From contig ML996701.1 in NCBI GenBank assembly GCA_010356995.1, positions 127,160 through 191,159 of the forward strand: DNA of 64,000 nucleotides, given 5' to 3'. This document shows positions 26,619 through 40,751 of the stretch, in pieces. The notes under the pieces were generated by a model. It was not told the DNA's origin. It worked only from the letters and a program-made list of their open reading frames with translations, and did no database searches. Numbering within the stretch: the stretch's first letter is position 1; each line of letters starts with the position of its first letter. This DNA is from Trichodelitschia bisporula. Its lineage: Eukaryota; Ascomycota; Dothideomycetes; Phaeotrichales; Phaeotrichaceae. Made by a program: the position numbers and the translations under genes.

Positions 26619-28526
26619 CTAACGCCCCATGTATCCCGAATACTCACCTCCCATGCCAGGGAACATGCTCGAACCGCTACCGATCCCGTTGCTCCGCCCG
26701 TTCTGGCCGCTGCCGTTCATGCCGTTCATGCCGTTCATGCCGTTCATGCCGCTCATGCCGTTGCCGTTCATGCCACTGCCGTTCAAGTTGCCATTCATGC
26801 CATAGGCGGTTCCGTTGCCGTTGCCGTTGCTGAAGGCACCTGCGCCATAATTCCCGTACCCACCAACCGAGTGCACCGGGCCACCGTTCAGCGACGCGGA
26901 AGGCGCCAGACCAGGCGGGAGCGCAAGGCCGGGCGGCGGACCAGTGACGCTCGAAAAGCCCGGTGGCGCGCCGAGGCCGCCAAGTCCAGCTCCGAGACCG
27001 GCGTGGTGGAGGGGCTGCATGCTAGCAGCAGAGTTCTGGCCAGAGCGCACACCGAGCGGGTTCTTGCTGAAAGACAGACGGATACCGCCCTTGACGGAGT
27101 TGTGCAGCATCTGCCCGTAGAGATCATGAAGCGCCTTAGTAGCGAAGCTCGTGTCCTCGAACTCGACAAAGCACATGGGTCCGTTCTGCTTCGTCCGGAA
27201 GCACAGGCGCTTGTACCCGCGCTGCTTGCTGAATATCGTCTTGAGTTCGTCCTCAGATGTGTCGACGGGCAGGTTGCCGACGTACAGCGTGTTGCACGGT
27301 GGGTTCTGGTCCGCTGGGTTGACGGGCGGGTAGTTGTGCCGCGAAAAGTGGCCGAGTGGGAAGCCAGCGCTCGGGCCGAGAGGCATGGCTGGCGGTACCG
27401 GGGCCCGCGGCGCGGCGAACGTAGAATGCGGCGACGTCATACCGTTGCCGGAGGGCGATTGGAGCGACAGGGACTGAAACATGGAGACGGGAGGGGCCTG
27501 GGCAGCGGCGGCAGCAACAGCAGCAGCCGTAGTAGCGCGACGCGTGGCCTCGCCGTTTCTCGCGAACGCGACGGGATCATTGAGGAGCTGGCCCGTCTCG
27601 TCGCCAGGATCGTCGTTGATAATGGACTTGCTAGAGACAGCCGAGTTGGCCAATGGCGACTGGGGCGAGAACAACGATTGGATCTGGGGGTTGGACTCAG
27701 GCGCGGGGAAGGTGTCGCCAAGGCCGGCGGGGGGGGACAAGCGCTCCAGGGACTGGAAGGTGTTGTTGAAGCGCGAGGCCTGGCGACCGTTGATCTGCAC
27801 GCCGTGGCTGGTGTGGCCAGTGTGGCCAGTGTGGCCGGAGTGGCCGTTGACCTGGGCCTGAGGCACCGAGGGATGGCGCAGCGCAGGGCCATCGACCGTG
27901 TTGCGCCGCACCGAGGTCGAGCTACTACCGTTGCTGCCTCCGCCCACCGTGCCCGGCGGATATAATTCGACGAGCAGCTTCGCGTCGCTGGAGATGGCCT
28001 TGCCGTTCAGCTTATCGCGAGCCTCGTACGCGCCGGGCAGGGAGGCAAAGCGCGCGATGGCGGACGCGCAGCCGGCGTCATCGGGGTACTCGGCGGGGAC
28101 AAACGAGACGTCGACGAGGTCCTTGGCGAAGAGAAGCATGGTGCGCAAGACATCGAGGGTTGTTTTCTGCGGGAGTTTGCGGATGAGGATGGCGGGGCGC
28201 GCGTCCAGATCGGATTGCTGTTGCTGTTGCTGTTGCGCGACGCTGGCGTCCTTCTTGGCCAAGGAGAGAAGCGAGGATTGTTCGAGTGGTTTGCGCTCGC
28301 CGATGGGAGCGAGGTTGAAAGCATGCGACGGCATGGCGTCAGACATGACGTTTTGCTGCGCCTTTAGCTGCGACTTTTGCTGCTCCTTCTGCTGCTGTTG
28401 CAGCTGCTGCGACGAGGATAACGGAGGCGGCGACGCGGCGGTGGAACCGAACGAAGTGGGGGTGAAGGGCGACTTTGCGGCTCCGGATGACGACGTTGCG
28501 CTTGACGGAGATGGCCCGGTGGCCAT
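26619..28526 (-). CDS. Whi3/Scw1-type RNA-binding protein with two RRMs
   Basis: Cytoplasmic RNA-binding regulator related to budding-yeast Whi3 and fission-yeast Scw1, which bind mRNAs (for example cyclin messages) and affect cell size, morphogenesis and wall integrity. One exon, 635 residues from the ATG at 28526; the frame is open upstream to 28706 but that part reads like leader. Residues 30-105 are Ser/Gln-rich, with a run of seven glutamines near 98-104. RRM1 spans about 111-190 ([20 protein letters not shown] ... LLVELYPPG). A long linker follows with [12 protein letters not shown] near 231-242. RRM2 spans about 411-488 with RNP2 LYVGNL and RNP1 GPMCFVEF, and is very well conserved ([16 protein letters not shown]). 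The tail contains Gly-Met-Asn repeats. Such Q-rich Whi3 proteins form condensates in Ashbya; similar behaviour here is inference. Confidence 0.92.
26700..26830 (-). repeat. Met-Asn-Gly coding microsatellite in the Whi3-like tail
   Basis: TGCCGTTCA units on the plus strand (ATGAACGGC on the coding strand) recur about nine times with small variations, encoding a Gly-Met-Asn low-complexity stretch near the protein's C-terminus. Length variation between strains would be expected. Confidence 0.85.
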
Positions 28527-29780
28527 GACGGGGTTCTTTGTTGCCCCACGAGGTGCGTAGGCGTTTGATGCGCACGGCGAACAAAGCAAAGCGCGATGCG
28601 GCGGGATGCGACCGGTGCTGCGATGCGATGCGATGCGATGCGCGACAGATTTATTTTGGCAGTGACGAAGGAGGCGGCGCGACTTCGTCAGATAATTCGC
28701 GAACAAAGTGCACAGTGAGTATGCAGATGCTTAGAAAACTTATGCGACGCGGATTGGGACGAGAAAAATCGTGGATAAGCGTCTAATGGTGGGGGAAGAC
28801 GACGGAGAAAAAAGTCGAACCAAAGACCGGTTTTTGGGGGGGATGAATGGAGCGGTAGAGTTGAGAAAGAATAGAGAGAGAGAGAAAGAGAGCGAGGGAG
28901 ATGTTTGGGGTGGTGGAGGGCAGAAAACGGAGTTTCGAAATGCGACGTCTNNNNNNNNNNNNNNNNNNNNNNNNNNNNNNNNNNNNNNNNNNNNNNNNNN
29001 NNNNNNNNNNNNNNNNNNNNNNNNNNNNNNNNNNNNNNNNNNNNNNNNNNNNNNNNNNNNNNNNNNNNNNNNNNNNNNNNNNNNNNNNNNGGGGGGAAAG
29101 TGAGGTGGATGAGTTGAAAAAGAGGGTGGTTATGGATCGTGATGGAGCTCCTCAGTAGGGATTTGTTCGTTGGTGGGTAGGGGGGATTGTGTGCGGAAGG
29201 GATGGTGGGTAAGTGAGGGGGAAAAGTAGACAAGGGTATGTTGGGAGAAGAGAGTATTGAGTGTGAGTTGGAGACCGAGAGGGTGTGGGAGAGAGACGGT
29301 TGTACGCTATACTCTGCTACACCTGGCGTTGGTAGAGGGTGATGATAGACAGCGTAGCTGGCAATAAGATGTTCCCAAATGGAGGGTGAAGAGAGGCCCA
29401 GGAACACTACTGGGATGGCGCGATGCTGAGATAGTCTGTTGGCAGGGTAGGATGGAGAGCAGCAGCAGTGAAGGCGTGAGAGATGCAACGCAGGACAAGG
29501 ATGAGGTCTTGTAGGCGACGCTGCAGGCCGACGGAGGGCTAGTCGAGTCCCTAATCAGTTGCAACGGCTCTGCAAGAGCGAAGTAGAGTAGAGATGGTGG
29601 GTGAGGTTGTGGTGGTGGATGCGGAGCTGCTGGTGGAGATGCTGGAAGACAGGTGGTGGTGATGAATGCACTGTTGTCCCTCGTCGCTGCGAAGAAAGCG
29701 AGTTGTAAAGGGTTGCGAAGGAGTGAAAGTCAAGAAGGCAAAGTGCCGAATACCACGATCTGTTCCGTACTCTCTAGGGC
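28527..29780 (-). promoter_or_regulatory. Long pyrimidine-rich leader/promoter of the Whi3-like gene, with assembly gap
   Basis: On the coding (minus) strand this stretch is very rich in C and T (for example the CTTTCTCTCTCTCTCTATTC run opposite 28870-28890), as in fungal leaders of regulatory genes. A four-copy CGATG microsatellite lies at 28621-28640. Open frames in it are low-complexity and not credible genes. The extent of the transcript is unknown. Confidence 0.5.
28951..29090. other. Assembly gap (140 N)
   Basis: An unresolved run of 140 N bases, flanked by a purine-rich run on the plus strand and a G-run (GGGGGG) at its right edge. It lies within low-complexity sequence, which probably caused the gap. 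The true gap size may differ. Confidence 0.99.
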
Positions 29781-37185: not shown

Positions 37186-38382
37186 ATGGAGCAGTACCGC
37201 AACCAAATCAAGCACATCGCATCGACAGTCCTCCCCTCCCGGACGGGCGCCGCCGATACGATCCACAAGGCCGGCACGAACGATGGCTGGCATGGAGCCA
37301 TTTTAGAGGAAGGGCCGTTCAAGCCAGAGGCGGATCGGTACCATCTGTACATCGGACTCTTCTGCCCCTTCGCCCACCGCGTGAACCTCGTCCGGCACCT
37401 CAAGGGTTTGACAGACATTATCTCCCTGGACGTGGTCAAGGCATATCCAAAAGGAGACGACGAGGGCTGGCCCGGGTGGCAGTTTCCGAAGACGGTCGAC
37501 GAGTATCATGACTCGACAACGGATCGCCTGTTTGGCAGCGCCTTCCTCCATGAAGTATATTTTCGCGCAGACAAAGAATATAAGGGCCGATACAGTGTGC
37601 CCGTCCTATGGGACAAGAAGAAAAACACCATTGTCAATACTGTAAGTGGCCTTCGCGCGTTTTGAGCGGAACTAACCTGGCCATAGGAGAGTGGAGAGCT
37701 CCTGCGCTGGCTGCCGACGGCGTTCAATAGCATCCTTCCCGAGGAGTATGCCAAAATCGACCTGTATCCGCCGCATCTGCGGGCGCATATCGATGCCGTC
37801 ACTGCCTGGATGCAGCCGGATCTCAATATCGGCGTGTACAAGACCGGATTCGCGCCGGACCAAGAGACGTACGACAAGAACGTGATTCCGGTGTTCGCGG
37901 CGCTGAACAAGCTAGAGGAGATTGTGCACGCACATGGCGGGCCGTATCTCCTCGGGAACGAGTTGACCGAGCTTGATATCCGCCTGTACGCCACGCTGAT
38001 CAGGTTCGACGTCGCGTATGTGCAGCATTTCAAGTGCAACCTGGGAACTATCCGCCATGATTACCCGAATCTACACAATTGGCTGAAGAACCTGTACTGG
38101 AACGTCAAGGGATTCAAGGAGACGACTAACTTTAGGCACATCAAAGAAAATGTACGCGGCTCAGACTATGTGAGCGCAACGGCTGACCAGAAGCAGTACA
38201 CGAAGAGCCACCCGGGCATCAACCCAAAGGCCATCACGCCGATGGGTCCGTTTCCCGACATTGACGAGGGCTTCGAGCCGGACTTTTTGAAGCTGCCCGT
38301 GGGAGCGATCAAGCTCCCTGCGGTTGTGGAGCGTCAGGCTACGCTGGAGAGTCCCACTACCCCGTCTAAAGCTGCTCTGTAG
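37186..38382 (+). CDS. Glutathionyl-hydroquinone reductase-type glutathione S-transferase (Ecm4/omega-like)
   Basis: Enzyme of the Ecm4/Xi-class GST family, which reduces glutathionyl-hydroquinones with glutathione and is linked to quinone detoxification. Two exons, 37186-37641 and 37687-38382, with a 45-nt intron, encode 383 residues. The thioredoxin-fold N-domain carries LFCPFAHRVNLVR; Cys60 is the expected catalytic residue, although the family usually has CPWAHR. Further family hallmarks are FGSAFLHEVYFRADKEYKGRYSVPVLWDKK, NTESGELLRW, the C-terminal helical domain GVYKTGFAPDQETYDKNVIPVF, GPYLLGNELTELDIRLYATLIRFD and NWLKNLYWN. The start is the ATG in CCACCATGGAG. Its stop lies only 123 bases from the stop of the convergent ARF-like gene, so the 3' untranslated regions may overlap. 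Confidence 0.93.
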
Positions 38383-38505: not shown

Positions 38506-40751
38506 TTAAAGCACAACCCACTTCTCCTCACCCTCGTCTTCATCGTCCTTCTCCCCCTGCCCCTTCCCATCCTCCCCCCCCCTGTCATCCCCCCTCCACT
38601 CATTCTCTCCTTCTTTCCTTCCCTCCTTCCCTTCCTCTTTCCCCTCCTCCTTCCCTCCCCCCTCCCAGTCCCCCACATCCATCCCCTCCAAGCCCTTCAA
38701 ATCAGGCCTCACATATTTCTCCCTTGCCTCCTCCGACTCCCATAGCACCGGGGTATAATACGCCCTCCAAAGCTCCTCATAAACAACATGCCCATTCCCC
38801 CTCACCCATCCCTCAAACCCCCCTCCCACCGCCCCCTGCACATTACTCAGTACCTGTCCCGCCCAAAAGCGCCGCCACGTCACCCCCCTTACATACGGCC
38901 CGCGTAATCGGCGCACAGTTTCCCGTCCCCGCGCTGCAAGACTCTCCGCATTTCCGCCCTGGAGTGCCGCCCACACCGCCGCCAGCATCTCTGCGTGCGA
39001 GCTCACGCAGCCTATATCGACGGCGCGCAGCTCCCCGCCGGGGCATATCTCGTCGGTCAGCAGCGCAGCGTGGAAGGACAGTTCTTCGAGGGGGGGAATC
39101 TCGCCGGTCCACAAGAGGCCGGTGTGATCCCCCAGCACGTCGAGATTTTGCGGAGGAATGAGGGACGGCAGCCGCGCACGGTCCGGCCGAGCGACGTGCG
39201 TGCGTGCCCCGTAGGAGTTCCACGTGCGCGGGGTGTAGTGCTTCATCCACAGTGTGGACGGGAGGGGGAAGAGGGACGTGAAGGTTTGGAGGGAGAGGGT
39301 GGGTGCGAGGGTGGGGTGGGAGAGGGAAAGGGATGAGAGTGCTACGTGGACGATTTGGATCCAGAAGGTGGCTTGGGTGGCGGAGTATGGAGGGAGGGAG
39401 GAGGGGGCATGGGCGCGGGCGCGCATGGTGTTGGACTGGAGGGCGGAGAGGGCGTGGGTTTGGATGAGGTGTCGGAGGTGGAGGGAGTGGAGGGTGTACT
39501 GCGCGACGGAGAGGGCGAAGCGGAGGAGCCGGTAGGTGTCTTGGGGGAGGGGGGAGGGGTGGTGGAGGGTTGGGAGGGGCGCGAGGTCGGGCGTGGTCCA
39601 GTGGAGGTGGGCGGGGGGGCTGGAGAGGGTGGTTGCGGTGTAGTAGGCTTGCCAGAGGGTGGGGTTTGTGAGGGCGGGGGAGTGGAGGAGGATGAGATTG
39701 AAGGATGAGGGTGGAGGGGCGGATGGGAGGTTGTGCTGGCGCTTGTAGCGGTTGATGGAGAAGCGGAGGATGTAGAGCCAGAAGATGGTTAGTGTGCTGG
39801 AGAGGTTAGTTTCTGATATCAGGATAGGAGCTGGGGCGTACCGGTTTTCCGCATCGTGGAATCGATTCGGCCATGCTTCGCGCAGGCGTTCGAGGTGGTG
39901 AGTGAACGTTTCTGCGGAATCGAAGATACCTTTCTCATTCCCGATACAGTCCAGTAAGATCATGTATCCGGCCCGAAGGTAGTTTCGGTGGTTCCACACG
40001 GGAAGGTCGGCCGCCAGAAAGCCATGCCAAAATGCCGCCGGCTCCAGGTCCAGCTCTGTCTCCTGGACCCTCGGGTGGTACGATGAAGTCTCCTGGGCTG
40101 GTAACTCTTGATGCAGCGGTAATGGTGGTGCATCTCTAGCGACCTCCGTGTGTGAGATGGAGTCCAAAACGTCGTATATATGCGCTCCAGTCTTAGCACT
40201 GAACCCCGGAGTCGCCACAATCTCCCAGCTCAGCCGGCCCTCGTACCTCGCCAGCTCCTCTTCAAACCGTTTCACGGTCTCCGCGACCGTGGTCGAAGCA
40301 CTCTCCGGTGGGAGCAGGTCCTGCTTGTTAAATACGATCCACAGGTACCGCGCGCCCACAAGTTGCAGCTGCCTCGCAAATTCATGAAGAACCGCGAAAG
40401 ACTCGCTCAGCGCTTTAGAGCGCCCGCAGCCGTGTACAAAGATGCCCAAACAGTTTGGGCTAACAAAGTAGCTGATGTAGGCGGGAACCCCATCGCAGCC
40501 TAGAGCTCGTCAGATTGGACCTGCTTTGAACGGGAGGACAAACCGCGAACGGCCCATATCTCGTAGTTGGTGCCCCGGTGGGCTATTGTCTCAACATTAC
40601 AGAAGCCAACTGTAGTTGAAGCAGTGCTGACGTCTGCCCCGAGCTTCCACTTGTGAAGAAGCGTAGCCTTGCCGGAAGCGCCGAGTCCAAACATGACCAC
40701 TTTCTGTTCCTTCGGTCCGAACCAGGGAATAGCTTTGAGCAAGCTCGCCAT
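38506..40751 (-). CDS. ARF-like pseudo-GTPase fused to a repeated C-terminal region
   Basis: I infer exons 40751-40544, 40499-39842 and 39796-38506, 718 residues. Intron 1 (44 nt) and intron 2 (45 nt) match local introns in size and branch points (CTGAC, CTAAC). Residues 1-185 align to ARF GTPases. The P-loop reads GLGASGKAT, lacking the Ser/Thr after GK. The switch II motif WDVGGQ is WAVRGC, so the Asp and catalytic Gln are gone. NKQD (127-130) and SAKTG (170-174) are intact. Gly2 is Ala, so N-myristoylation is not expected. After residue 190 comes a region with LPVWNHRNYLRAGYMIL and three divergent motif sets: FWLYIL ... LWQAYYT ... TPDL; FWIQIV ... LWMKHYTP ... RPD; FWAGQV ... LWRAYYTP ... 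RPDL. The last 50 residues are Lys/Glu/Gly-rich. Function is unknown; a scaffold-like role is a guess. An in-frame upstream ATG at 40856 exists but adds no conserved sequence. Confidence 0.78.

Follow-up and report, generated by a model that had tools for sequence, protein, structure and literature searches.

A probable Arl17-type gene of Trichodelitschia bisporula with altered G1 and G3 motifs and three C-terminal helical repeats related to a bacterial stand-alone domain

The window analysed here, a stretch of 64,000 nt from the genome of Trichodelitschia bisporula (GCA_010356995.1, contig ML996701.1, positions 127,160 to 191,159 of the forward strand), carries on its minus strand a gene of probable Arl17 type, in which a diverged Arf domain precedes a helical domain in three diverged tandem copies and an acidic tail (Table 1). 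Its convergent neighbour (37687–38382) encodes a protein with a glutathione S-transferase C-terminal domain, and the stop codons of the two genes lie about 123 bp apart. Elsewhere in the window, a large swing in GC skew (0.346, then −0.303) was observed between positions 28001 and 32000, around the sole run of N (28951–29090).

Table 1 Features of the Arl17-type gene, in positions of the window
Feature	Position	Strand	Basis or remark
Arl17-type gene	40751-38506	minus	718 aa plus stop after splicing (read from DNA)
Exon 1: N-terminal segment, P-loop, switch I, interswitch	40544..40751	-	Arf homology
Altered P-loop (G1) GLGASGKAT	40662..40688	-	Lys kept; Ala29 replaces Mg-ligand Thr31
Altered G3 WAVRGCD, split by intron 1	40492..40556	-	Asp67->Ala, Gly69->Arg, Gln71->Cys; Gly70 kept
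Intron 1 (predicted), 44 nt	40500..40543	-	GT..AG, CTGAC branch-point-like site
Exon 2: remaining Arf domain (NKQD, SAKTG), linker, start of C-terminal copy 1	39842..40499	-	
Intact G4 NKQD, residues 127-130	40318..40329	-	
Intact G5 SAKTG, residues 170-174	40186..40200	-	
Intron 2 (predicted), 45 nt, in frame	39797..39841	-	GT..AG, ACTAAC branch-point-like site
Exon 3: remainder of copy 1, copies 2 and 3, acidic tail, stop codon	38506..39796	-	
Helical domain copy 1, residues 222-365	39568..40044, including intron 2	-	Profile match 225-364, 20.0 bits; repeat test; model
Helical domain copy 2, residues 384-500, weakest copy	39163..39513	-	Profile match 426-499, 8.3 bits; repeat test
Helical domain copy 3, about residues 505-659	38686..39150	-	Profile match 597-658, 16.5 bits; repeat test
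Gly/Glu/Lys/Asp-rich low-complexity tail, residues 662-718	38509..38679	-	Sequence

The gene model with two short predicted introns, as proposed in an earlier note on this DNA, held up: consensus splice sites and branch-point-like sites flank or lie within both introns, and splicing leaves 718 open codons. Coding support from codon usage was weak. The sense frame ranked first among the three forward frames in all 12 slices, with a score of about zero over residues 1–280 and a negative score over the last ~180 codons, and an antisense frame scored higher in four of the 12 slices. At the 3′ end, where the coding sequence runs out in a purine-rich tail of low complexity (KEEGKEEGKEGRKEGE), the codon-usage score is negative and an antisense frame scores higher.

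Pfam analysis of a query protein that still contained intron 2 assigned residues 13–184 to the Arf family (52.6 bits, cut-off 22.3, E 4.9e-14), and a match to Roc stayed under its cut-off. Among PDB sequences, Arf6 and Arf1 came closest to the Arf part (best E 4.8e-17), and the identity of this part amounted to 33% with both Arf1 and Arf6 of the same genome and to 28–30% with Arl1, Arl2, and the Arfrp1-like protein. Judged by best matches and identity rather than by a tree, the domain thus appears most like Arf1/Arf6. In the residue numbering of human Arf1, the window protein keeps the equivalents of G24, G29, K30, T48, G70, N126, K127, D129, and A160, and both base-recognition motifs, NKxD and SA(K/T), are present. 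Thr31, Asp67, and Gln71, the residues of an active GTPase, are replaced by Ala29, Ala67, and Cys71; G1 reads GKA versus the canonical GKT, and G3 reads WAVRGC versus WDVGGQ. Residue 2 is Ala instead of the Gly required for myristoylation, which rules out N-myristoylation at this position, and one extra residue each was found in switch I and after GF (STASTTVGFCN). The protein shares with canonical Arf1/Arf6 the G4 and G5 motifs, the P-loop Lys, Thr48, Gly70, and an N-terminal F-G-x-(K/R)-E, whereas it lacks Gly2, Thr31, Asp67, and Gln71 and carries ~530 extra C-terminal residues. The motif reading of the earlier note, namely altered G1 and G3 motifs and Ala2 next to intact NKQD and SAKTG, was confirmed.

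The motif loss could also be a mere appearance, produced in a canonical Arl17 by an assembly error or by wrongly chosen exons, and the sequence comes from one assembly. Single introns with GT/GC..AG ends and a length of 30–150 nt that keep the downstream frame comprised 28 candidates, including the gene model, and 0 of these 28 restored GK[ST] or W[DE]xxG. The alternative splice that had been named beforehand as speaking against altered G1 and G3 motifs was thus not found among the candidates, and a splice artefact was rejected as the cause of the motif loss. In addition, the changes are dispersed across the Arf domain (14 of 32 invariant columns, see below) and the sole N run of the window lies far away from the gene, making an artefact of assembly or exon choice highly improbable.

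As reference for conservation served five canonical paralogues from the same genome (Arf1, Arf6, Arl1, Arl2, and Arfrp1/Arl3-like, with Arl1 and the Arfrp1-like sequence being partial). In the 32 columns that are invariant in all five, the window protein keeps 18 residues and changes 14, the latter comprising the equivalents of Thr31, Asp67, Gly69, and Gln71 and ten other positions, a few of them beside alignment gaps. The lost catalytic residues therefore sit in a domain that is generally diverged. All four base-recognition residues are retained and all three tested Mg/catalytic residues are lost, a combination whose joint chance, C(18,4)/C(32,4) × C(14,3)/C(28,3) = 0.085 × 0.111, is about 0.01 at the overall rate of 18 kept in 32 and for a post hoc choice of residues. 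Intact G4 and G5 motifs beside lost G1 and G3 motifs are hence suggestive of selective retention, being only mildly non-random. Of the earlier proposal of a pseudo-GTPase "rather than random decay", the first part stands as the most likely reading, and the second was too strong given the 14 changed positions. Indeed, the same counts, including a joint chance that was chosen post hoc, would fit an Arl17 copy under relaxed constraint that is heading for loss, with drift behind the motif changes and chance behind the intact G4 and G5. Codon usage gives the Arf part little support and turns negative over the tail, which leaves room for early decay or drift. However, the reading frame is open over all 718 codons, the two introns have consensus splice and branch-point-like sites, the sense frame beats the other two forward frames in every slice, and the P-loop Lys, Thr48, and Gly70 are kept alongside G4 and G5; we consider a copy on its way to loss unlikely.

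WNHRNYL and, after it, TLTIFW in the first part of the window C-terminus resemble a motif found in bacteria. GTDB genomes, scanned with a DNA pattern for Y-H-E-T-L-T-(R/S)-x-W, yielded 55 loci (L031–L085), 45 of which carry the domain and extend for 60 or more residues to either side of the motif; by eye, seven of the other ten are cut or broken copies, and L068, L070, and L072 show the motif alone. A profile was built from 44 of the 45 loci, leaving out L055 with its insertion, and conservation was read from an alignment of 33 of the 45 members, the 12 left out being near-duplicates (by eye) and L055. Invariant in these 33 members (numbering of L037) are H21, H24, Y65, H66, E67, T68, L69, T70, R71, W73, and R122; Y65–T70, W73, and the choice of R or S at position 71 were preset by the search pattern, and H21, H24, and R122 are independent of it. 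The bacterial domain, with its motifs WTHxAH and YHETLTRFW, occurs in Acidobacteria, Cyanobacteria, Lacihabitans, and others. The AlphaFold model of the bacterial domain is all-helical, with a mean pLDDT of 96.0. In a Pfam scan of the 33 bacterial members, no family was matched by more than two of them (best E 0.0037), PDB sequences included no significant relative (best E 0.57), and a Foldseek comparison of the domain with the PDB returned 71 matches, none with an E value of 0.001 or lower (best E 1.0). The bacterial family (e.g., L037:244–651) appears to represent an enzyme or a binding protein not yet characterised.

Comparing the spliced window protein with the 44-member bacterial profile gave three matches and a score of 46.2 bits, versus 41.5 bits for the unspliced ORF, and the best of 5000 shuffled C-termini reached 8.6 bits; copy 2 by itself (8.3 bits) lies under this best shuffle. 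Because the spliced protein outscores the unspliced ORF, intron 2 is independently supported. Run against the 605 window ORFs with a length of 60 aa or more, the profile was significant for the Arl17-type gene only (E 3.9e-12; next best 2.3), and in the repeat test all three pairs of copies outscored all 2000 shuffles. Chance similarity of the C-terminus was ruled out by the 5000 shuffles together with the 605 window ORFs. A block LWxxYYT...S..A.....PD is common to the three copies. Copy 1 retains WNH, TLT, and FW, its second His and the surroundings of YHE being altered, and copies 2 and 3 retain mainly the FW and YYT...PD parts. While the three copies are homologous to the bacterial stand-alone domain by profile, most residues that are invariant in the latter, i.e. 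the His/His pair, Arg122, and Tyr-His-Glu-Thr-Leu-Thr-Arg, are lost from them. This loss, together with the 14 of 32 changed Arf positions, is also compatible with the relaxed constraint considered above.

The window C-terminus was also modelled over 517 residues from an alignment of 16 rows, with intron 2 left in the query. In this model, copy 1 forms a helix series resembling the bacterial model plus an extra short helix, with pLDDT block means of 63–96 (73–96 for the greater part of the copy) and a low stretch (83–101) that overlaps the intron residues; the agreement with the bacterial model is partly built in, since the alignment rows covering copy 1 are bacterial. Beyond copy 1 the model is poor, and its overall mean pLDDT is 56.4.

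This combination of domains has a precedent. Arl17, an ARF paralogue of unknown function described in 2021, has an Arf domain and, after it, a novel domain of ~100 residues, which is present in one, two, or three tandem copies and occurs in bacterial stand-alone proteins as well (PMC8358228). Our gene likewise has an Arf1/Arf6-like N-terminus, three non-identical tandem C-terminal copies, and a bacterial stand-alone counterpart without known homology. From the published description, we infer that it is Arl17-type: it shares with Arl17 a diverged domain near Arf1/Arf6, the tandem copies, and a C-terminal domain outside Pfam families, and it differs in the disrupted G1 and G3 motifs. The earlier note knew of no characterised member of such an architecture, which is true as regards function; the architecture itself had already been named Arl17 (PMC8358228), and with the three C-terminal copies in the window gene an orphan architecture was rejected. 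Arl17 was reported from certain fungi, and its presence is sporadic in most of the groups that have it (PMC8358228), a distribution that would also suit a copy heading for loss. This study was the only one retrieved by a literature search on Arl17, fungi, and GTPase. It is conceivable, if on the doubtful side, that Arl17 pseudo-GTPases are widespread and were filtered out of the published survey.

Compared with other fungal Arf proteins, the gene product stands apart. A survey of 56 fungal genomes describes, in the part of the article available to us, common G motifs and lengths of 156 to 272 residues for fungal Arf proteins (PMC8146680), and the window protein with its 718 aa lies outside this range. 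For Magnaporthe oryzae, the accessible part of PMC6794486 lists seven Arf proteins and does not name Arl17; the T. bisporula genome has a comparable Arf set in addition to the Arl17-type gene. By motif reading, it keeps canonical genes for Arf1, Arf6, Arl1, Arl2, an Arfrp1/Arl3-like, an Arl8-like, and a Sar1-like protein, and the switch jobs are therefore covered elsewhere. A search of the genome with the window C-terminus returned only the gene itself among the matches listed. With one bacterial domain as query no match was obtained in the same genome; since the window gene itself was missed, this search says nothing on other copies. Viral contigs, searched by pattern, with the window protein, and with the bacterial-domain alignment, gave no confirmed relative. 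On plasmids, tblastn of copy 1 hit four records at E 4–8, two of which were examined and had no resembling ORF, and tblastn of two bacterial domain proteins gave nothing at E 0.01.

Homologues of G proteins whose motifs for hydrolysis or nucleotide binding are lost include, in the parts of the literature available, ARL10/13/15/16, RND, RhoH, RHOBTB, dynein LIC, and CENP-M, and the window protein resembles them in this respect. To our knowledge, none of these has C-terminal helical repeats. According to the accessible part of PMC12722892, class I pseudo-GTPases bind no nucleotide and class II members bind it without hydrolysis, and several ARLs lack the switch II Gln. Our protein might accordingly be nucleotide-regulated, holding GTP without hydrolysis like the class II proteins RND and RhoH and being controlled by turnover or partners, as retention of the motifs for guanine recognition and of the P-loop Lys, Thr48, and switch II Gly70 would allow. 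However, Thr31 and Asp67, which support Mg, are both lost, and class II pseudo-GTPases usually keep their equivalents. Moreover, the G domain of a fungal dynein LIC reportedly binds no nucleotide, whereas human LIC1 binds GDP (PMC4359372, accessible part), and regulation by bound nucleotide seems quite improbable for the window protein. The dynein LIC paper was the only one found in a literature search on ARF pseudo-GTPases in fungi.

On balance, the gene probably encodes a fungal Arl17 whose G domain does not hydrolyse GTP, binds nucleotide weakly or not at all, and serves as a constitutive scaffold. Loss of Thr31 and Asp67 would remove or weaken the Mg site and loss of the catalytic Gln71 would abolish GTP hydrolysis; with both Mg support and the catalytic residue gone, neither hydrolysis nor an Arf-type Mg-dependent switch is therefore expected. 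The kept P-loop Lys, Thr48, NKQD, and SAKTG could hold a guanine nucleotide weakly or stabilise an empty pocket. By analogy, a scaffold with the G fold as a binding surface appears most likely, in which the Arf surface and the non-myristoylated N-terminal segment would attach to a partner or to a membrane, leaving the helical repeats to bind another partner; the hydrophobic N-terminus may touch membranes. If an Arl17 without hydrolysis motifs is indeed what this gene encodes, at least part of the job of this ancient, patchily retained ARF paralogue would need no GTP cycle, and the C-terminal repeats would be indicated as the working part. The bacterial domain, with its invariant His and Arg residues and its confident all-helical model, offers a tractable entry to Arl17 function.

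Some bacterial copies of the domain share their ORF with other domains: a GNAT acetyltransferase in L060, a flavin reductase-like domain in L080, and, as a weak match, a methyltransferase in L077. Two copies of the domain in one ORF were seen by eye in L045, L047, L074, L084, L035, and L056, the first four of which also showed them in the alignment. The hosts of these double copies are three Lacihabitans, Leadbetterella, Bacterium SZAS-1, and an Eremiobacterota bacterium, and tandem copies in bacteria are either older than those of eukaryotes or a parallel to them.
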